NCBI GenBank assembly: GCA_000996085.1
Contig: LBYG01000008.1
Location: forward strand, 1 to 49,050
Reading direction: 5' to 3'
Source of the DNA: Parcubacteria group bacterium GW2011_GWB1_40_14
GTDB taxonomy: Bacteria; Patescibacteriota; Minisyncoccia; Terrybacterales; GWB1-40-14
DNA length: 49,050 nt
Shown here: positions 4,974 to 42,204 of the stretch, piece by piece
How the letters are laid out: each line of letters starts with the position of its first letter
Position numbering within the stretch: the stretch's first letter is position 1
The notes under the pieces: generated by a model
Seen by the model: the letters and a program-made list of their open reading frames with translations, nothing else
The model's database searches: none
What the model was told of the DNA's origin: nothing
Translations under genes and position numbers: made by a program

Positions 4974-6204
4974 ATGATCTTCAAAAAAGCTTCTGAAAAA
5001 ATTAATACATTCATACCCAAAGAAGCATTGTTGCTTTCCGGACTTATTTTTTTAAGTTATGTTCTTGGTCTTGTGCGCGACAGAATATTTGCGCGTACTT
5101 TCGGTTTAAGTTCCGCGCTTGATGCGTACAACGCGGCATTTATTTTACCCGAACTGTTCATTGATGTTCTAATAAGCGGGGCTTTGGGCGCCGCGTTCAT
5201 TCCGCTCTTTGTAGAAATTTACAAAAAAGATAAAGCGCGCAGCGAAGAATTTGCAAACACCACCATAACCTCTGCTGTGCTTGTAATGATAATAGGCGCC
5301 GCAGTATTAATATTGTTCGCGCCCAAAACCGTTTCTTTAATAGTTCCCGGATTTAACGCTGAAAACCAGTTGCTCTATTCAAATCTGCTCAGAATAATGG
5401 CGCTATCCCCTATAATTTTCGCGTTATCTATATCTTTGGGAGAAATTCTGGTGGCAAAAAGACAATTTTTATTCTATGGCCTGGCGCCGATACTTTATAA
5501 CTTCGGGATAATTTTGGGCACAATAATATTAAGCCCAAAGATAGGAATTTTTGGCGCGGCCATAGGCAGTATTTTGGGAGCATTGCTTTATCTTGCCATA
5601 CGGCTATTGGGAATATTTAGATCCGATTTCTCACTTAAGCCGGCATTTAATATAAAAATGCCGGAATTCCGCAAACTTTTGGTTCTTATGTTGCCCAAAA
5701 TGTTTGGCCATCCGATAGAGCCTCTTACGTTTTTGTTCTTTACCGCAGCAGCCAGTAGAATAGGCAGCGGGGACATAAGCGCGATAAGTTTCGGCCGCAA
5801 TTTCCAAAGCGTCCCCGTGGCGCTAATTGGCATAGCTTTTTCTATAGTTGTTTTTCCTCGAAAGGTTTTTTGGAGGAGGAGAATTTACCCAAGAAGCCAT
5901 ACAAAGAACTTCGCTGATACTTGGATTCTTTTCTATTTCGATACCGCTTGAAAGCTTATCGCATCTTTTAAGCCGTGCTTTTTTTGCCACCAAAAACACT
6001 TTCATCCCGGTTTGTGCCGCTTTTGCGGGATTGCTTACTATAGTAATAACAACAAATTATCTCTCGCCTACTTTGGGCATAATTGCTTTGCCGATAGCTT
6101 TTGCCGCAGGAACCGCAACAAAAATATTATTGCTTGGCGCAATATTGCCTCTACGCGTACGTTTTATACGTAAAAACTCTTTACTTGACGTAGCATCGAT
6201 ATAA
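4974..6204 (+). pseudogene. murJ: murJ/mviN lipid II flippase, frameshifted with an internal gap
   Basis: The first frame (4974 to about 5860) is a normal MurJ N-terminal half: GLIFLSYVLGLVRDRIFARTFG, then the ALDAYNAAFILPELF signature and about eight membrane segments up to IGIAFSIVVFP. The frame then breaks. A second frame (from about 5848 to 6204) resumes with ERFFGGGEFTQEAI and further membrane helices, and ends after LPLRVRFIRKN. Against the family pattern about 60 residues are missing between VVFP and the FGGGEFT segment. The C-terminus is also short. MurJ flips lipid II for wall synthesis and is normally indispensable, so either an intact copy exists elsewhere or this is a collapsed assembly. 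Repeat copy 2 starts 13 bp after the stop. Confidence 0.8.
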
Positions 6205-10901: not shown

Positions 10902-11435
10902 TTATTCCTGTCCTGATCTGACATCAACCTGATACTGCTCACGTAAACTATCTGCCATCTCCTTTGTCCCGCCGATAATTTCAATATCGTAGGGATAAGC
11001 GTACTGCGCACGATACCCTTGTTCATGCTCAATTACATTGCCCCACAAAGAAACCTTACCGATAGCGAAACACTCGCGCGGTTTTTCCTGAGCGCTGCCT
11101 TTTATATGAGAAAAAGTAACCTGCCACTGAACAGGAAACTTTCTCTCGCGCTGCATATATTTGCTCGCGTCTTCTTCGCTCTTAAAGGCGTGAATGCCGC
11201 ATTCGCAATAAAAATACGGGGCTGCATGAGGCACTTCAATAATTTTACTGTCAGAATTGAACCAACAAAGCCTGTCGGCAGCCATGGCAATACGATAGGG
11301 CCATGCTACATACATATAAAGCGGGGAAATTAAAATATATTTTCCATAAACCCAATGCTCATTTTCTATGGCGGTTATAACCCGCCAAACTTTCCAGGCA
11401 TAAATAGGCTCAACAAGGATCTGTTTATCGGACAT
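10902..11435 (-). CDS. CGIHA/LWG-motif protein, paralogue of the next gene
   Basis: A soluble protein of 177 residues from the ATG at 11433-11435, which has GGAG 9 nt upstream; an upstream extension lacks this signal. It shares with the gene at 11509-12093 the motifs YCxCGI(H/Y)A, GKVSLWGNVIE, GYRAQYAYPYD and ADSLREQYQVD, and an N-terminal (I/V)xAW(K/R)xW. From memory, an uncharacterised family with CGIYA, LWG and AYP motifs is widespread in Actinobacteria and other phyla; no function is known to me. CxC may bind metal. The two genes are an obvious tandem duplication. Confidence 0.8.
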   Translation of the reverse strand: MSDKQILVEPIYAWKVWRVITAIENEHWVYGKYILISPLYMYVAWPYRIAMAADRLCWFNSDSKIIEVPHAAPYFYCECGIHAFKSEEDASKYMQRERKFPVQWQVTFSHIKGSAQEKPRECFAIGKVSLWGNVIEHEQGYRAQYAYPYDIEIIGGTKEMADSLREQYQVDVRSGQE

Positions 11436-11508
11436 TAATAAATCTCCGATTTTTAAAAGACGTTGCCATAAGCATATCAAAACCGGAACAAAAACAAAAG
11501 CCCATCAA

Positions 11509-12093
11509 TTAGTGATGAGCTTGTGATAATTCTATTCTTGTATCAACCTGATACTGCTCACGTAACGAATCGGCGATACGACGATCGTCAGCAAGTACTG
11601 TTAGATCATAGGGGTAAGCATATTCGGCGCGATAGCCATCTTCACCTTCAATAATTTCGCCCCATAAAGAAACTTGGCCAAAAACCGTGCAACCCATTAT
11701 GCGATCGGGCAAAATACCTCGCTCGTTAGCACTAACAACAGTCCAAGGCTTAGCTGGATCCATTTTCATCCCAGTAAAATAATTAAATAGCTTTTCTTTT
11801 GTACGCAGGGCATATATACCGCACCTGCAATAAATATCAGGAACTTGATGTTTAAAACCAATCAAATGAACCGATACTTGCCTATTGCTGGATTTCGCCA
11901 GAGATGAGACAAGCGCGAAACAATCAGCTTTCAACGTTATACGCGGTTTCCATTCTGTATGTTTGCTAACAGCTCTTAAACGATAAACAATATCATCGGA
12001 GAATAAGTTAAGTACGGCAACGGCTTGCCACATACGCCAGGCAATTATCGGCTCTTCTGAAACAACGTGCGGCAATACCTTGGATTTGCTCAT
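11509..12093 (-). CDS. CGIYA/LWG-motif protein, paralogue of the gene at 10902-11435
   Basis: 194 residues with the family marks EPIIAWRMWQAV near the N-terminus, IYCRCGIYAL mid-protein, then GQVSLWGEIIEGEDGYRAEYAYPYDL and ADSLREQYQVD near the C-terminus. Its ATG overlaps the stop of the proline-rich gene upstream as ATGA (12090-12093), so the two are probably translationally coupled. The last residues (ELSQAHH) differ from its paralogue. Function is unknown. Confidence 0.8.
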   Translation of the reverse strand: MSKSKVLPHVVSEEPIIAWRMWQAVAVLNLFSDDIVYRLRAVSKHTEWKPRITLKADCFALVSSLAKSSNRQVSVHLIGFKHQVPDIYCRCGIYALRTKEKLFNYFTGMKMDPAKPWTVVSANERGILPDRIMGCTVFGQVSLWGEIIEGEDGYRAEYAYPYDLTVLADDRRIADSLREQYQVDTRIELSQAHH

Positions 12094-12356: not shown

Positions 12357-12387
12357 AGAAAAAACGACTTACTTAAAGTAAGTCGTT
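12357..12387 (-). terminator. Terminator after the HTH gene at 12393-12746
   Basis: AACGACTTACTT pairs with AAGTAAGTCGTT, and the minus strand continues TTTTTTC. Confidence 0.8.
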
Positions 12388-12392
12388 ACCTT

Positions 12393-12746
12393 TTAACTAA
12401 AACTTTCGTTGAGAAGTTCATTTATTACCTTCTTTAATTCTTCGGTTCTGTTTTCTTTTACCAGTTCAAGAGGACTTTTACCAAAAAATACTTCTTTGGG
12501 TTCACGCAACCATTTTCGTATATAACGCTGTTCTACAATTTCAGAAAGTAAACGGCAAACGTCGTAAAGATAATCTATACGTACGCGCGCTTCAACCACC
12601 AAAACGTTATATCTCTCGCAATTGCGAATTGCGCGGACAGACACGCCGGCGGCAGAAGAAATATCGCGATAGCTAAGGAAACATTCCCGACGCAAAGCAG
12701 AAATTTGCTTACGGGCTTCATGCGTTTGCGGCAATTCTATGGACAA
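12393..12746 (-). CDS. Helix-turn-helix protein with MbcA/ParS/Xre-like tail
   Basis: 117 residues. The central SYRDISSAAGVSVRAIRNCE reads as an HTH. The C-terminal IRKWLREPKEVFFGKSPLELVKEN, followed by an amphipathic helix, resembles the C-terminal (DUF2384-like) domain of Xre/MbcA/ParS antitoxins, which pairs with RES toxins. No RES or other toxin is visible nearby, so a toxin-antitoxin role is not supported; a solitary regulator is as likely. I place the start at TTG 12744-12746 because GGAGG lies 9 nt upstream, inside the last codons of the cysteine-rich gene. The genes overlap by 10 nt and are probably co-translated. Confidence 0.65.
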   Translation of the reverse strand: MSIELPQTHEARKQISALRRECFLSYRDISSAAGVSVRAIRNCERYNVLVVEARVRIDYLYDVCRLLSEIVEQRYIRKWLREPKEVFFGKSPLELVKENRTEELKKVINELLNESFS

Positions 12747-12979
12747 TTTGCACACCCTCCGCCACAACAGGACTCTCTTTCGAGTTCGGCCTTGTGCTTA
12801 GCTTCATGTCGTACAATATGACCAAAACATACAACAGCATGTCCGCAACTGGCTTCTCTGCACATTTGGGTCATGCCCTCGGTAGGACAACCCAATTCCT
12901 CACATTCGACACATTCGGCAGGCTCAGTGCAGGCACATTCGGCAGGCTCAGTGCAGGCACATTCGGCAGGCTCAGACAT
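12737..12979 (-). CDS. Cysteine-rich (14 Cys) putative metal-binding small protein
   Basis: 80 residues with Cys at 7, 9, 15, 17, 23, 26, 31, 40, 45, 51, 71, 72, 76 and 79, and His at 47, 54, 58 and 62. The N-terminus is a repeated octapeptide EPAECACT (2.5 units) encoded by tandem copies of an interspersed DNA repeat (12909-12975). The middle CREASCGHAVVCFGHIVRH resembles a zinc-binding knuckle. The tail is CCGGGCANCP. A metallothionein-like or zinc-finger role is inferred from composition only. GGAG lies 6 nt before the ATG. It overlaps the HTH gene, which suggests a metal-linked regulatory pair. Confidence 0.75.
   Translation of the reverse strand: MSEPAECACTEPAECACTEPAECVECEELGCPTEGMTQMCREASCGHAVVCFGHIVRHEAKHKAELERESCCGGGCANCP
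12909..12975. repeat. Tandem TTCGGCAGGCTCAGTGCAGG repeat inside a gene
   Basis: About 2.5 units of a 24-bp repeat related to the TTCGACAAGCTCAGGG intergenic repeat, read in frame by the cysteine-rich protein. Confidence 0.75.
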
Positions 12980-13046
12980 TTATTTCTCCTTTAAAAGAAC
13001 CTTTTTTATTTATACAGCAACGCCTCTAAATTATCAAATAAAAAAC

Positions 13047-13083
13047 ACCCAGCTCTAATTAAGAATTAGGGCTGGGTATTTTT
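13047..13083. terminator. Bidirectional-looking terminator, CCCAGCTCTAATT family
   Basis: ACCCAGCTCTAATT pairs with AATTAGGGCTGGGT. Plus-strand TATTTTT and minus-strand GTTTTTTATT follow. It ends the minus-strand pair 13103/13240. Confidence 0.7.
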
Positions 13084-14276: not shown

Positions 14277-14303
14277 AAGCGCTATTGTTTAGCGCTTATT
14301 TTT
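14277..14303. terminator. Bidirectional terminator
   Basis: AAGCGCT pairs with AGCGCTT; plus-strand ATTTTTA and minus-strand TTTTAATTT follow. It serves the minus-strand gene at 14302-14673. Confidence 0.65.
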
Positions 14304-14673
14304 ATAAATAGGCTCCGTCAGCATAGGCAGAAGCGGCTTCATAAACCAGAGATGAATTATCTTCTCGTAAAAGTTCAAGAGGCGTTCTGCCTTTAAGATA
14401 TCTCAACTTAGCATGAAACCATTCGTTGATTCCCTGGTGGCTTAAAGATTGATGCAATTGCACCATTATTATGTCGCGTATTCTGATAAGTCTTTCTCTT
14501 ATTGTGCCGGTCAAAAGCGTACCAAGCGTGCGAAACTCTTTATGCTCATAAACTGAAACGCTTATCATTTCAGCAACTTCTTTTTCTGTAAATTTATAGT
14601 CCTCTATAAAAGAATCTATAATACTTAAAGCCGTTCTGGGACTTTCTAATTTGCAACAACTGTCAGACGCCAT
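14302..14673 (-). CDS. Small protein with MbcA/ParS/Xre-like tail
   Basis: 123 residues. The C-terminal INEWFHAKLRYLKGRTPLEL followed by a short helix resembles the W-x-(x)-G-x-(S/T)-P-L-E-L tail of the HTH protein at 12393-12746 and of DUF2384-type antitoxins. The N-terminal part is helical (FIEDYKFTEKEVAEMISVSV may be an HTH). AAGGAGG lies 9 nt before ATG. No adjacent toxin is seen. It is the second of three such proteins within 3 kb, perhaps a local expansion of one regulatory family. Confidence 0.65.
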   Translation of the reverse strand: MASDSCCKLESPRTALSIIDSFIEDYKFTEKEVAEMISVSVYEHKEFRTLGTLLTGTIRERLIRIRDIIMVQLHQSLSHQGINEWFHAKLRYLKGRTPLELLREDNSSLVYEAASAYADGAYL

Positions 14674-14726: not shown

Positions 14727-15236
14727 TCATATTCTTACTTTAAACATTGCTTTTGAAAAATCACTGTCGTTTTTGGCCTGCTTTATGTAATCGATAGGAG
14801 CCACATCATAGAGATAATCGTTCGGTGCTTTAAGCCATCTGATAATATCTCTCCGCTTAAAAGAAAGGCTGTTTGGAATGGGCTTGCTGAGATAAAAAAC
14901 AACCTCTTCAAGCATTTTTAGGCGTTTAAGATATGAATATGCTGAATCATAATCGGATTCTTTGCCGACAAAACCTTGGACGGTTTTAATACCGAACCCA
15001 TATTCGGGAAGTCTGGCTTTAAGGAAATCCTCGATCGCTTCTGCTACATATACCTTAAACGAATGGTACAAAGCAGATCTTTCAAAACTCTCTCCACCCG
15101 GAGTAGCTATAATTCCGCCCGTAACCTGCTCAAAAACACAATCACAATGTTCACAGCCGTAAAGCGAACCGCGTCCGCCGCAGCTGCCGCCTTCAAGAAA
15201 AACAACTGCGCCGCCGCACAGACTGCACTTTTCCAT
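14727..15236 (-). CDS. Zinc-ribbon protein with MbcA/ParS/Xre-like tail
   Basis: 169 residues from ATG 15234-15236 (GGAGAG 7 nt upstream; a longer frame to 15278 lacks this). The N-terminus is a zinc-ribbon pattern: CSLCGG (Cys 4, 7), a Gly-rich loop, then CEHCDC (Cys 28, 31, 33). The middle is helical. The C-terminus, DIIRWLKAPNDYLYDVAPID plus a helix, matches the tail of the genes at 12393 and 14302. A zinc ribbon joined to this tail is unusual to me. Function is unknown; a sequence-specific or protein-interaction regulator is plausible. Confidence 0.65.
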   Translation of the reverse strand: MEKCSLCGGAVVFLEGGSCGGRGSLYGCEHCDCVFEQVTGGIIATPGGESFERSALYHSFKVYVAEAIEDFLKARLPEYGFGIKTVQGFVGKESDYDSAYSYLKRLKMLEEVVFYLSKPIPNSLSFKRRDIIRWLKAPNDYLYDVAPIDYIKQAKNDSDFSKAMFKVRI

Positions 15237-15335
15237 TTTTATCTCTCCTTCAATACTGCTCAGGACAAGCTTTTTCAAATAACTTATTTTCTTATACCAG
15301 TCCTGTGGATAAAATCAATCTATAAATAAAAACAA

Positions 15336-16944: not shown

Positions 16945-18477
<1,533 letters not shown>

Positions 18478-25444: not shown

Positions 25445-27358
25445 TTAGGCGTTTTGCAGTTTTGGCTTGCCGTGGGAATTCTCCTTTGGGGGCAGATCAG
25501 CAAAGATCTTTTCGAATTCTTCACGATAAACAGTCTCTTGGACAAGAAGTTTCTGAACAAGCGTTTCCAGTCTGTCTTTATACTGCGTGAGAGTTTCTCT
25601 GGCTCGTTCTCTGCCGCGATCAAGAATTTTCTTGATCTCTTCATCGATCAGTTTTGCAACCTCTTCTGAATAATTGCGCTGTTCACTAATATCACGGCCA
25701 AGGAAAATCATGGAATCGCGCTTACCAAAAGTTCGCGTGCCCAAACTTTCACTCATGCCGTACTGCATAACCATGTTTCGCGCAATTTCAGTTGCTTTTT
25801 CTATATCGTTTGAAGCGCCGGTTGTAACGTCACCGAAAATCATTCGCTCAGCTACATTACCGCCAAGCAATCCGGCGATTTGATCCTCAAACTCGGCTTG
25901 AGATCTGAGATAACGATCTTCCGTTGGAAGAGCCATAGTATAACCCAGGGTCATACCGCGGCTAATGATAGTAACTTTAGCTACCGGATCACATTTTGGA
26001 AGTATGCGCTGCACGATAGCGTGTCCGCTTTCGTGATAGGCAATAATGAGCTTCTCTGGCTCGGAAATGATCCGGCTTTTACGCTCAGGACCGGCAACCG
26101 CGCGTTCTATAGCTTCCAGAAACTCGCTCATACCGATGAGTTTAAGGTTTCTGCGGGCAGAAAGAATCGCGGCCTCATTCACTACGCCTGCAATGTCAGC
26201 ACCCGAGAAGCCGGGACACTGTCTTGCTAATTCTTCAAGATCAACTTCTTTGCTGATCAACTTGCCTCGTGCATGAACTTGGAAAATTGCAAGCCGACCT
26301 TTAAGGTCTGGCTTGTCTACGATGACCTGACGGTCAAATCTTCCGGGTCGAAGTAATGCGGGATCCAAAATATCAGGCCGGTTCGTTGCAGCCAACACGA
26401 TTATATTCGTGCTCTGCTCAAACCCGTCCATTTCAACAAGGATCTGGTTTAAGGTTTGTTCGCGTTCGTCGTGACTGCCGCCAAGACCGGATCCGCGTTG
26501 ACGTCCAACCGCATCGATCTCATCTACGAAAACAATTGCCGGACTATTTTTCCTGGCCTGCTCGAAAAGATCGCGCACGCGAGCGGCACCAACACCAACA
26601 AACATTTCAACAAATTCGGAACCCGAAATGCTGAAAAAAGAAGCACCGGCTTCTCCGGCAACCGCTCTTGCGATCAGAGTTTTTCCGCATCCCGGAGGGC
26701 CTACCAACAGAGCGCCTCTGGGCATCTTTGCGCCCAGGGTATTGAATTTCTCAGGATACTTAAGAAATTCCACTATCTCCTGAAGTTCTTGTTTTGCTTC
26801 CTCAACTCCGGCTACATCAGAAAACCTGACAGTACTTTTGCCATGAGTGTGGCGCGCACGCGAGCGGCCAAAATTCATCGCGTTATTATTCTGCTGCTGA
26901 TTTTTTTTCATAATGTACCAAAAAATTCCCAAGATAACCAAAATAGGAATGCCTACTGATATAAGCATTTGTATTAGTCCGTCGTCTGAAGGTGGTAGAC
27001 CGGAAATCGTAGGACCTTGACCTTCGTTCTGACACTTGGCTCCGGATTCAGCACAGACAGAAGTTATATCGGCTCGGATATCGGTGGTCAAAGCTCCCGG
27101 CACAGCAGACGTAACTGACGTGCCGGAACTAATATCTAAAGCCTTTTCCCCGTCTTCGGTGATTTTCAGCAAAAGTTTTCCGCTTTGCTCCTGCTCTACT
27201 TCAGTAACATACCCATCTTTTACTAAAGTCAAAAAAGAATTTTCAGCGTTATCGTAAGGGACAATTATTTCACCTTTTGAAAAAAAGCTTCCAAAAAGCA
27301 TCATTCCAAATACAATGACAAGCATTATCATAAGCATTCTTTTGGTATTGGGATTCAT
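25445..27358 (-). CDS. ftsH: ATP-dependent membrane zinc protease FtsH (copy 1)
   Basis: 637 residues. Transmembrane helix at ~8-25, an outside domain with two Cys (C101, C109), a second helix at ~130-150. The AAA+ module has Walker A GPPGCGKT (220-227), Walker B VFVDEIDA (276-283) and the second region of homology [20 protein letters not shown]. The zinc protease motif is HESGH (442-446). FtsH degrades damaged membrane proteins and short-lived regulators, as a hexamer in the inner membrane. It is followed upstream by an SPFH gene (27541-28449) and a second FtsH (28688-30763), all on the minus strand but separated by terminators. Confidence 0.97.
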
Positions 27359-27457
27359 GGACGCCTCGCCTTTTTATTTCAACGTGCTCAAAGTTTGGGG
27401 TTAATATAACATAAGATAAAGAAAAGGCAATATGTCTTACGGTGTTTTTTCAAATTA

Positions 27458-27530
27458 AAATCCCGATTTTTTGAATCGGGATTTATTTTAATTAAAATTA
27501 AAAACCCAAACCGGTTAGTTTGGGTTTATT
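27458..27530 (-). terminator. Tandem terminators after the SPFH gene
   Basis: Hairpins AAATCCCGATT / AATCGGGATTT and AAACCCAAAC / GTTTGGGTTT, each with T-rich sequence on the minus strand. Confidence 0.75.
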
Positions 27531-27540
27531 TACTAATTAT

Positions 27541-28449
27541 TTATGGCTTATCTTTTTCTAGATCCTCAAGCAATGTGGTCGGATCCACGATTATGCCTTC
27601 ACCGCTTGGCATGATGGCGATCTTAATGTTGTCTGCCAGCTTCTGCAAAGCCTGAAACTGAATCAACATCGGCGTCAACGATTTAGCTAGGGCCTCGTTG
27701 GCCAAAGCCTGACCTTGGGCTTCGATGCTCAAAGCGTCAGCCTTACCCCTGGCAACTTCCCTGGCCTGCTCGGCTTCGTGTCTCCTCTGCATAATGCGCT
27801 GCTCCTCACGCAAAGTATTTTGCGTAGCGATCTGCGCTTCCTCAATGGCTTTATCAAAGTCTGCGCTAAATGTTATATCGTCAATAAGCACATCAACGAG
27901 CGTAATTGAATACTGATCCAATTCTTTCCTGAGTTTACTGGCCACGTCCTTACCAAGCTTTTCGCGTTCTGGCTGAACATCCAACGCTTCATACTTAACT
28001 ACTTCGTCCTTCAGGATATTTTTTACGCGAGGAACGATGATCACTTCATAATAATTAGGACCTACATTCCGGTACAGCGTCTGGACGTTCTCCGGCGCAA
28101 CCTGGAAGTTAACGCTGACGTTAGTGAGAAATATTTTCTGGTTTTCCTTACTGTCTGAATCAAGCGATTCAAATGAACCATTCTGAATCTGAATGTTGGC
28201 TAGCTGCATATCTTGCCACGGAGCAATGACCTGCAAACCCTCACCGAATTGACCGGTAATTGCGCCGAAATTGTAGACAACTCCCACCCACCCTGAATCA
28301 ATTGTCTTAACCGAACTGAACAGCGTAATGACAAGAGCGCCTGACGCAAGACCAATTAAAACTATTTTTTTATATTGCAGGTCTTTCACAAAAAAAATGA
28401 CTCCGATGCCTCCCAAAACCACAGCAATAATTATCATGATCCAAAACAT
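27541..28449 (-). CDS. SPFH/prohibitin-family membrane protein
   Basis: 302 residues from ATG 28447-28449 (AAAGGAG 7 nt upstream; a longer frame to 28491 lacks this). Two N-terminal hydrophobic segments (about 3-20 and 28-45) precede the SPFH domain (SGWVGVVYNFGAITGQFGEGL, FQVAPENVQTLYRNVGPNYYEVIIVP). A coiled coil rich in Glu/Gln/Arg/Ala spans ~200-255, and the tail is hydrophobic then acidic. Prohibitin-like proteins (HflK/HflC, PHB) form rings around FtsH and moderate it. Being sandwiched between two FtsH genes makes the same role very likely here. Confidence 0.93.
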   Translation of the reverse strand: MFWIMIIIAVVLGGIGVIFFVKDLQYKKIVLIGLASGALVITLFSSVKTIDSGWVGVVYNFGAITGQFGEGLQVIAPWQDMQLANIQIQNGSFESLDSDSKENQKIFLTNVSVNFQVAPENVQTLYRNVGPNYYEVIIVPRVKNILKDEVVKYEALDVQPEREKLGKDVASKLRKELDQYSITLVDVLIDDITFSADFDKAIEEAQIATQNTLREEQRIMQRRHEAEQAREVARGKADALSIEAQGQALANEALAKSLTPMLIQFQALQKLADNIKIAIMPSGEGIIVDPTTLLEDLEKDKP

Positions 28450-28649
28450 TTCATGCTCCTTTCTATTAGTGCTGACCTTTAACGCGCACAAACACTTGTT
28501 AACGCGCCGATTAGCGTGATTACAAAGAACCGAACGATTTAAATTATGTTTAACAAATACCTAATTTTTTGTCAACCCAGTTAAAAACCTATCAATAAGC
28601 TTTTGGTTAGGCTTTAATATAAAACATTTCAGACGATTTGGAAATAAAA

Positions 28650-28678
28650 AAGAAATCCTCCGAGTTAATCGGAGGATA
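28650..28678 (-). terminator. Terminator after ftsH copy 2
   Basis: ATCCTCCGA GTTA(A) TCGGAGGAT, then TTTCTTTTTT on the minus strand. Confidence 0.8.
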
Positions 28679-28687
28679 AATTTATAT

Positions 28688-30763
28688 TTACGTAGGCAAT
28701 GCGGAAGTTTCTTCCTTGTCATCATCAACAGTTTCAGATTTCTGAAATAATCTGGCTTCAGTGTTCTTAACTGCTTCGGTGCCTGCAAAATTCTTGATGA
28801 ACTCTTTGATAAGTGCTTCACCTTCAAGTGTTTCAGCCCTTATAACTTCTGCAACAAGCCCCTCAAAACCAACCATATTGTCTTCAATGGCATGGCGTGC
28901 CGTATCTTTAGCCTGGTTGATAATGATAGCGATATTGTTATCTATCTTATCCTGCGTTTCCTGACTGAAACTACGAATAAGGTTATTCTCTTCAATATCG
29001 TATGTTCTAGTGGGCAAGTCATCACCCATGGCAAAATCGGTAACCATGCGCCGGGCCAAACGAGTAGCTTGTTTTAAATCGCTGCTTGGGCCAGTAGTAA
29101 TATCGCCTTTGAGAAGAATATCTTCAGCCACAAAACCGCCGTAATCGCTTGCAAGTTCAACCAAGAGATCGCTTTTGCTTTGCAGTAAAATATCACGGTC
29201 TGGCGTATACCAGGTCAAGCCTAAGGCGCGACCACGAGCCACAATGCTTATTTTATCGGGTATAGCATAACCCCTACTTGCAAAGAAACGCGCCACCGCA
29301 TGGCCACATTCATGCCAAGCGATCAATTTCTTCTCTGATTCCGTAAGAAGACGGGTCTTCTTTTCCGGACCGGCAACAATTCTATCTATGGCATCATCGA
29401 TATCTTTTGACAATATTTCATTGCCGTTCCTACGTGAAGCAAGTATGGCTGCCTCGTTCAAAACGTTTGCCAAATCAGCGCCAGAGAACCCCGGCGTTCT
29501 TTTGGCGATATCATATAGCTTAACCGCTTTGGCCAATTTCTTTCCCTTAGCGTGCACCTTAAGAATAGCTACACGACCCTTACGATCAGGAATGTCTACC
29601 ATAACTTGGCGGTCAAAACGACCTGGACGCAAAAGGCTTGGATCAAGAACATCTGGCCGGTTTGTGGCGCCTATGATCATTACACCATTTCTAATGTCAA
29701 ACCCATCCATTTCATGAAGAAGGGCGTTAAGTGTCTGAGCATACTCATCGCCGCCACCACCCATGGTTTGACTGCCGCGTTTTCGTCCAACCGCATCGAT
29801 CTCATCTATGAACACCACGCAAGGCGAATTGGCCCGCGCTGTTTCAAAAAGTTTCCTGATACGCGATGAACCAACGCCCACAAACATCTCAACAAAATCA
29901 GAACCGTTCGCTGAAAAGAACGGAACCCTAGCTGTACCCGCAACGGCTCTAGCAAGAAGGGTCTTGCCAGTACCGGGAGGACCGATAAGCAAGACACCTC
30001 TTGGCATACGCGCGCCAAGAGAAGTAAACTTCTCAGGATTTTTTAGGAAGTCCACGACTTCTTCAAGTTCAATCTTAGCCTCGTCCACTCCGGCAACATC
30101 TTTAAAGGTCACCTGTTCGATGCTAACACGCGAAGCGCCTGGGTTATCTGAAGATGACTGATGACCAGTCTGATTCTTATTTTTATCTTCGAATTTACGC
30201 CCATTGTTCGTGGGTGGATTGCTTCTAAGACGCCCAACAAACCGTAATATTAAAAAAATCCCACCTAAAAGCAACCCAAACATTAGAAAGCTAGATATTG
30301 GATTTCCGGGCTGCGGAGGCGGCGGAACTTTTTCCTCCTCTTTAATAATCTCGTACTCAAAGCGATTGGCGTCCGTAATAACTATTCCTTCTAGCGGCAA
30401 CAGATCAACCTTCAAATCCGTATTATTTGGTATATAAACAGATTCCTGAATATCATTTTTCAGTGTAACGATAAGCGTGACACCCCTTGCCACAACCTTC
30501 TTCACTTCACCATTTCTTATCTGATCATAAAGTTTTGTGAGAGGTTCCGTGCGAGGCGGACAATTTCGGCCACTGCATGGCACCGGAGTTGCGTATGAAT
30601 CAAACGTAGGTTGCGCGGTTGGATATGATTCTGTCTTTGGAGTGAGTTGATAAGAAGAACTTATTCCAACGGTTAAAACACGTAATACAAAAAAAGAAAA
30701 AATAACAGAAAAGGTTATGAGCAATATGATCACTAAGTCTTTAGGAATATTCGGGTGTTTCAC
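28688..30763 (-). CDS. ftsH: ATP-dependent membrane zinc protease FtsH (copy 2, divergent)
   Basis: 691 residues. Helix at ~9-31, a Pro/Thr/Ser-rich outside domain with C63 and C68, a second helix at ~157-175, then a Gln/Asn-rich cytoplasmic linker. AAA+ module with GPPGTGKT (261-268), VVFIDEIDA, and [20 protein letters not shown]. The protease motif is HECGH (484-488), with Cys where Ser or Ala is usual. The outside domain and the N-terminal 150 residues differ strongly from copy 1, so the two FtsH proteins may take different substrates or form mixed hexamers with the SPFH partner. Confidence 0.96.
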
Positions 30764-41169: not shown

Positions 41170-42204
41170 ATGGACAAATCTGTCGACACGCGAAAATCGA
41201 AAATAATTGTAATTGTAGGCCCTACCGCTTCCGGCAAAACTGCTCTTGCAATCCGTCTCGCTAAAAAATTCAAAGGCGAGATTATTTCTGCAGATTCAAG
41301 ACAAGTTTATCGCGGTATGGATATTGGAACAGACAAACCCTTCGACTCCTTCGATTTCGCTCAGGACAGGCCGGCTCAGGGTAAACCCAAAAAAATAGGA
41401 AATGCCATCATAATTCGTGGAATATCCCACCACTTAATTGATGTTGTAGAGCCAAATGATAGTTTCACTTTAGGACACTGGCTTGAACTTGCCAAAAAAG
41501 CAATTACAGAAATTGAACAGAGAAATCACATACCAATAATTGCCGGCGGAACGGGACTTTATATATCGGCGTTGCTTTATGGATTTGAAATTCCTGTCGT
41601 TCCGCCAAATCCGAAACTTCGCAAAAAACTTGAAGCAGAAATAAAAAAATACGGCACCAAACGCCTGGCCAAAAAAATACTCCAAAAAGACCCCCAAGCC
41701 GCAGTTTTCCTGGATACAAAAAACCCGCGCAGGCTGATACGCGCCTGGGAAGTAATGGAGGCTACAGGCAAAAAATTTTCTCAAATCAGAAAAAGATCCG
41801 CGCAACCAAAATACAACACGCTTATTGTGGGTCTTACTTTACCCAAAAATGATATTGAACGAAAAATAGCTCTGCGACTTAAAAAGCAGTTTAAAAAAGG
41901 ATTAAAAAAGGAGGTACTTACTTTGTCAAAAAAATATGGTTGGAACGTGTCTTCAATGAACACTTTGGGTTATTCTCAATGGAAAAACCATTCGCATAAC
42001 AACTCATTAAATGATAAAAACGTTTTCGGGACAATTCTTAAAGACACAATACGATATAGCAAACGGCAGATAACTTGGTTCAAGAAAATGAACGATATTA
42101 TATGGCTAGATGCTAAAAACAAAAAACCCCGCACCCGAGTAAACTCGGTGCGGGGCAGACGCCTGGAAAACCAGGCCGCCAAATATATTCGTAAATTTTT
42201 ATAA
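41170..42204 (+). CDS. miaA: tRNA dimethylallyltransferase MiaA
   Basis: 344 residues from ATG 41170. P-loop GPTASGKT (17-24), SADSRQVYRGMDIGTDKP, HHLIDVVEP, PIIAGGTGLYISALLYG and the C-terminal RQITWFKK are typical. It adds the dimethylallyl group to A37 of tRNAs reading UNN codons. Residues 58-74 (FDSFDFAQDRPAQGKPK) are an in-frame copy of the interspersed TTCGAC...CTCAGGAC repeat. The last ~25 residues (after WLDAKNKK) are encoded across a CCCCGCACC / GGTGCGGGG hairpin, so the natural end has probably been extended by repeat sequence as well. Confidence 0.95.
   Translation: MDKSVDTRKSKIIVIVGPTASGKTALAIRLAKKFKGEIISADSRQVYRGMDIGTDKPFDSFDFAQDRPAQGKPKKIGNAIIIRGISHHLIDVVEPNDSFTLGHWLELAKKAITEIEQRNHIPIIAGGTGLYISALLYGFEIPVVPPNPKLRKKLEAEIKKYGTKRLAKKILQKDPQAAVFLDTKNPRRLIRAWEVMEATGKKFSQIRKRSAQPKYNTLIVGLTLPKNDIERKIALRLKKQFKKGLKKEVLTLSKKYGWNVSSMNTLGYSQWKNHSHNNSLNDKNVFGTILKDTIRYSKRQITWFKKMNDIIWLDAKNKKPRTRVNSVRGRRLENQAAKYIRKFL

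Follow-up and report, generated by a model that had tools for sequence, protein, structure and literature searches.

Rickettsia is among the bacteria in which palindromic repeats inside protein genes have been described, and such intragenic REPs and RPEs are treated as established, with a bias towards genes of DNA repair and translation (PMC3733652, PMC10969869). According to PMC3733652, many of the N-terminal REPs may be extragenic, i.e. the true start of the gene may lie downstream of them. PARCEL elements, according to PMC2996958, are tandem coding repeats with dyad-symmetric DNA that occur sporadically across bacteria and encode a motif of 25 residues in ORFs to which no function is assigned.

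The repeat described here resembles the intragenic REPs and RPEs in that it is short, dispersed, apparently of palindromic type and read in frame in unrelated protein genes, often of DNA repair and translation, here those of LigA, UvrB, RecG, Fpg, IleS, ArgS and AspS. It differs from them in its patescibacterial host, in its 24-nt head-to-tail in-frame arrays, and in that neither a GTAG nor a CGTC end tag was seen in it and no Y1 (RAYT) transposase was found in this genome. In comparison to PARCEL, it is likewise a tandem and apparently dyad-symmetric coding repeat, whereas its unit has 8 residues, occurs in core enzymes as well and is read in several frames. Our literature search, with most subscription journals outside it, returned no description of this in-frame repeat in Patescibacteria, and none was found for the repeat letters or the repeat peptides. 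Among intragenic palindromic repeats, the 24-nt in-frame arrays of Patescibacteria would appear to be a form not described before.

The window, i.e. the whole stretch of 49,050 nt that was analysed, corresponds to contig C8 in its entirety, in a genome of 944,541 bp. This genome shares its class with Ca. Nealsonbacteria (G381) and hence belongs to the Patescibacteria. The gene of a cysteine-rich protein lies at 12737..12979 on its minus strand and is followed on the same strand, at 12393..12746, by the gene of an HTH protein. We consider it probable that the first of the two encodes an AN1-like zinc finger, the N-terminus of which was neutrally grown by the in-frame repeat, and that it is translationally coupled to an orphan regulator with an MbcA fold.

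In agreement with a sequence-only reading of this DNA, which had announced a 14-cysteine protein, the first ORF encodes 80 aa with 14 Cys, in which a putative AN1-like zinc-finger core (about residues 20-64) is preceded by an N-terminal repeat extension. This content is far above chance, since the 13 large genes of the window average 0.53% Cys (35/6545 residues); at that frequency the binomial probability of 14 Cys in 80 aa is about 2e-17. The N-terminus reads MSEPAEC(ACTEPAEC)x2 and continues into VECEELGCPTEGMTQMC. It is encoded by a tandem array at 12910..12975 (minus strand) that was called with TRF (period 24, 2.8 copies); the 2.75 copies are 100% identical and give the EPAECACT units. 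The length of the unit is 24 nt and as such a multiple of three, the lack of which the same reading had named as a refutation. A 64-aa version of the protein without the two extra units would retain 10 Cys.

With its core CTGAGCYTGYCGAA, the 24-bp unit is a member of a dispersed family of REP-like repeats. The 14-bp repeat core TTCGRCARGCTCAG has 13 exact copies in the genome, 3 in the Cys gene and 10 elsewhere, as compared to about 0.016 copies expected by chance. Many of the aligned copies pair 3-4 outer bases beside the core, and the flanks common to many of them (GCYTGYC before the core, GGG after it) complete the 24-nt unit. The earlier proposal that the EPAECACT units derive from tandem copies of an interspersed repeat, the expansion of which created a cysteine ladder, is supported.

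Further in-frame copies of the repeat in this genome lie in ileS, argS, the gene of a PdaB-like deacetylase, an unnamed 519-aa ORF and miaA, and in-frame copies with one mismatch in recG and fpg. The ATP synthase gamma gene holds a one-mismatch site that may be due to chance, and the remaining loci among the 16 outside the array are in short ORFs or intergenic, except for one with a single mismatch that falls in an ORF of 157 aa (L019). In miaA (41335..41394, plus strand) the peptide SFDFAQDR corresponds to the 8 codons (24 bp) by which the protein of this genome exceeds that of its congener G001 at this place. A Y1 transposase (PF01797) was found neither in this genome (G000, 92.8% complete) nor in G001; PF01797 is present in 4 of the 6 genomes searched, with 15 matches in G381. 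Not all families of REPs or RPEs are known to have an associated Y1 transposase. We also note that an ileS ORF (L005:589-2964, minus strand, contig C22) apparently has a phosphoglycerate-mutase-like domain ahead of the C-terminal part of IleS, its residues 92-254 matching NCBIfam dPGM_arch with E 1.4e-29.

The repeat core occurs in 95 of 188 genomes of the class, and the reversed control pattern in one. Arrays of 24 bp are present in other class genomes in LigA (ALSLSKEP x5), GlyA (APSASSGQ x3) and GrpE (STSSAQGA x2), all of which yield Cys-free peptides, and single copies in AspS, IF-2 and UvrB. A step of 24 nt is characteristic of the repeat: among the matches listed, all 9 of the 9 spacings below 100 bp equal 24 (4 + 2 in G170, 1 in G143 and 2 in the Cys gene). 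From IMG/VR contigs we obtained 40 stretches with two cores close together, which gave 38 pairs after duplicate removal. Of these, 29 lie inside ORFs of at least 120 aa, and the period is divisible by three in 23 of the 29 (binomial p 5e-7 against one third), a statistic in which the pairs are partly related (L105 is counted twice, and L084, L094, L098 and L112 look similar), some ORFs may not be genuine, and a second copy that is out of frame can introduce a stop. The commonest period of the in-ORF pairs is again 24 (9 pairs); among the other 9 pairs, 3 have a period divisible by three.

Five of the six reading frames of the 24-bp unit are open, and only ACPEPAEG carries Cys. This is the frame used in the Cys gene, and it is also used in the IMG/VR ORFs L080 and L117 (ACPEPVEW, ACPELVER). 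The fact that the repeat sits in a Cys-rich protein in the sole Cys-bearing frame is mildly suggestive of selection, and selection for extra Cys is possible; the array copies are identical and there is therefore no substitution signal from which selection could be read. RNA structure was rejected as the role of the array, which folds no better than shuffles (z 0.03 as RNA, -0.91 as DNA). The Cys of the ladder would more plausibly be the outcome of the reading frame used than of selection for a ladder, because the dispersed repeat grows likewise in core genes across the genome and the class. In the simplest reading the ladder is specific to this lineage and a by-product of the one frame in which the genome-wide repeat is read here, the result of near-neutral in-frame growth at a tolerant N-terminus.

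For many N-terminal REPs a downstream start is proposed in PMC3733652, and by analogy the repeats could here be untranslated, with the true start of the Cys gene further downstream. We regard this as very improbable, since a clear Shine-Dalgarno sequence, AAAGGAG (12980..12996, minus strand), stands directly before ATG 12979, and the two later in-frame starts that precede the middle of the core, a TTG at residue 29 and an ATG at residue 36 with no others, would both remove Cys that are kept by the relatives described below. For the same two reasons the N-terminal units are very likely translated.

Homologues were sought with the repeat units removed from the query, in 383 class genomes at E<=1 and in 379 phylum genomes, two samples that overlap. 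In the class, 20 of the 383 genomes gave a match, and only the own genome and G381 were accepted; the other weak rows, several of which carry stops or sit in long ORFs, were left out of the family. In the phylum, 4 of the 379 genomes matched (the own genome, G595, G629 and G024), of which the own genome and G595 were accepted. The G629 match overlaps a 212-aa membrane-protein-like ORF and the G024 match a deaminase-like ORF, and both were set aside. The relative in G381 (Ca. Nealsonbacteria) has 64 aa and is 61% identical over the matched stretch (E 1.2e-9); it was recovered again in the named record JACPGX010000005. The relative in G595 has 57 aa (E 2.6e-9). The full-length Cys protein matched 1 of 188 relatives, i.e. 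its own genome only; order-level searches for the family returned 1 of 17 and 1 of 147 genomes, each time only the seed genome, and first scans of viral and genome contig collections gave no homologue. In plasmids, phages, IMG/VR and the PDB there was no usable match to the protein or its relatives beyond weak PDB rows.

The core frame is kept in both G381 and G595, whereas the sequence-only reading had named a frame not conserved in relatives as a refutation. In two gap-free core blocks (27 codons), pN is 0.15 against a pS of 0.80 in the comparison with G381, and 0.23 against 0.93 in that with G595; as pN is well below pS in both cases, the core is under purifying selection. The repeat-free core represents a real, if rare, family in Patescibacteria. 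In all three proteins the following are invariant: P, C, C-E, G, P-T-E-G, T, C, C, C, G-H, H and one late C.

The candidate ligands of the G381 core are ordered C-x4-C-x8-C-x2-C-x4-C-x2-H, and this order is as expected of AN1 fingers. The G595 member, the only one of the relatives to do so, matches Pfam zf-AN1 (PF01428) with E 0.0083, the best score of 16.7 bits being below the cut-off of 27.9; in the PDB it finds 1x4v (E 0.022), 7y7l (E 1.1) and 1wfe (E 4.1), all of them AN1 chains. The likeness is limited in that the last Cys/His ligands vary among the family and the spacings of the Cys protein of the window are slightly longer (x4, x5). For this protein, Pfam, NCBIfam and the PDB gave no match, and its structure model (pLDDT 46.9) is unusable. 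A literature search on AN1 fingers in bacteria returned no relevant paper. We call the core AN1-like, not AN1, and metal binding by it is likely.

The ancestral protein was probably a small zinc finger of the AN1-like kind, about 64 residues long. The REP-like, apparently palindromic repeat would then have grown in frame, 24 bp at a time, and so contributed two units of 8 residues with four Cys. The first unit may itself be ancestral and repeat-like only by coincidence, because Pro-x-Glu-Cys ahead of the core is also present in G381.

The sequence-only reading had taken the Cys protein to be metal-binding and its coupling to a DNA-binding protein to suggest a sensor or storage pair. That the ladder was purpose-built to bind or store metal is not supported. 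In such a pair the ladder would extend the protein as an adaptation of metallothionein type, and the HTH protein would sense or report the metal load, as could be suggested by 14 Cys in 80 aa, by the use of the sole Cys-bearing frame of five open ones, and by overlapping genes that share a terminator. We think that this is unlikely. Metallothionein identity was rejected, as neither Pfam nor NCBIfam yielded any family for the Cys protein at E 1, metallothionein or other; neither of the relatives (G381, G595) has tandem units, i.e. the ladder is missing from both; and the same repeat lengthens LigA, GlyA and GrpE, genes unrelated to metal, with peptides that lack Cys. The HTH protein, moreover, matches Xre folds of the antitoxin type. 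In place of a sensor or storage pair we propose an AN1-like zinc finger beside an orphan protein of MbcA/Xre fold, a pairing that was not seen at the loci of the relatives.

As to the junction of the two genes, the letters themselves agree with what had been read from them earlier: the GGAGG at 12760-12756 that precedes the start of the HTH gene lies inside the Cys gene, and the TTG at 12746-12744 overlaps the TAG of the Cys gene at 12739-12737 by 10 nt. This overlap and the Shine-Dalgarno sequence suggest that the two proteins are translationally coupled, and the pair would probably form a local regulatory unit of a zinc finger and a DNA-binding protein. The HTH ORF is listed as 12393-12767 from the furthest TTG, and TTG 12746 is preferred; residues 1-14 of the listed ORF have pLDDT <50 in the AF2 model, which fits the later start. 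An intrinsic terminator-like hairpin (12363..12387, minus strand) comes directly after the HTH gene, and another terminator-like hairpin (13047..13077, opposite, i.e. plus, strand) lies between the Cys gene and an upstream ORF of a 59-aa membrane protein. The promoter scan was uninformative (15 found, 15.9 in shuffles).

The AF2 model of the HTH protein (pLDDT 85.4, from a two-row alignment) is most similar to MbcA (Z 15.8 over 110 residues), followed by NatR (13.2), VPA0769 (12.5) and Xre (9.6-9.9), with unrelated structures beginning at Z 6.5. The protein is therefore predicted to have, over nearly its full length, the MbcA/NatR/Xre antitoxin fold, i.e. an HTH and a C-terminal toxin-binding domain. 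At the sequence level the Xre_MbcA_ParS_C and Xre antitoxin matches are weak and below the Pfam and NCBIfam cut-offs, and no match was obtained in 54 other genomes or in viral, phage and plasmid collections. It also differs from the Xre/MbcA/NatR antitoxins in that its upstream partner is a zinc finger and in that the scan of neighbouring ORFs revealed no recognisable RES toxin.

This fold raises the question of a toxin-antitoxin-like pair, in which the MbcA-fold protein would be the antitoxin and the zinc-finger protein would take the place of the RES toxin as its partner. Two more ORFs with Xre/MbcA_C-like C-termini (14302-14673, and 14727-15278 on the minus strand) could be cited in its favour, the second having a Cys-rich, zinc-ribbon-like N-terminus. 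Apart from the lack of a recognised RES toxin in the ORFs scanned, however, the ORF lists of the G381 and G595 loci showed no HTH gene beside the finger, and PADLOC gave only a weak mad1 match (E 0.0009 over 28 residues). Zinc fingers of the AN1-like kind are, to our knowledge, not known as toxins. A pair of this type thus seems quite improbable, and we prefer the coupled zinc finger and orphan MbcA-fold regulator. The architecture of 14727-15278 is a faint hint that zinc fingers and the Xre/MbcA_C domain associate in this genome.

A bolder version, to which we would give little credence, combines the two themes, i.e. the zinc finger has replaced the RES toxin as the partner of the MbcA fold, and the number of Cys units is tuned by in-frame growth of the 24-nt repeat. 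If it were true, Patescibacteria would use a dispersed repeat as a frame-safe switch of protein length in core and regulatory genes.

In the favoured reading, an odd Cys ladder is explained by a general process, i.e. frame-preserving growth of a 24-nt repeat in the reduced genomes of Patescibacteria. The core genes affected include those of LigA, GlyA, GrpE and MiaA (growth) and of IleS, ArgS and UvrB (single copies), and the same process yields Ser, Gln or Leu ladders elsewhere. The shaping of proteins by DNA repeats can thereby be put to the test outside Rickettsia, and the case cautions against taking such repeats for functional motifs; in addition, a small AN1-like zinc-finger family and its orphan MbcA-fold neighbour are now named.

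The surroundings of the pair deserve some remarks. Synteny with the congener G001 was tried via the helicase gene, and the gene neighbourhood differs. Next to the pair, at 10902-12093 (minus strand), two ORFs of 192 and 194 aa that are related to each other stand in tandem; neither has a confident Pfam family. A complete 16S rRNA gene at 16946-18476 (minus strand) is the only rRNA gene found in the 49-kb contig. At 4974-6204 (plus strand) a gene whose product is presumably MurJ-like is divided between two ORFs that overlap and differ in frame (4974-5951 and 5848-6204), possibly by a frameshift. Finally, 25445-30763 (minus strand) holds what we take, from the sequences, to be a prohibitin/SPFH-like gene flanked by two FtsH-like genes.
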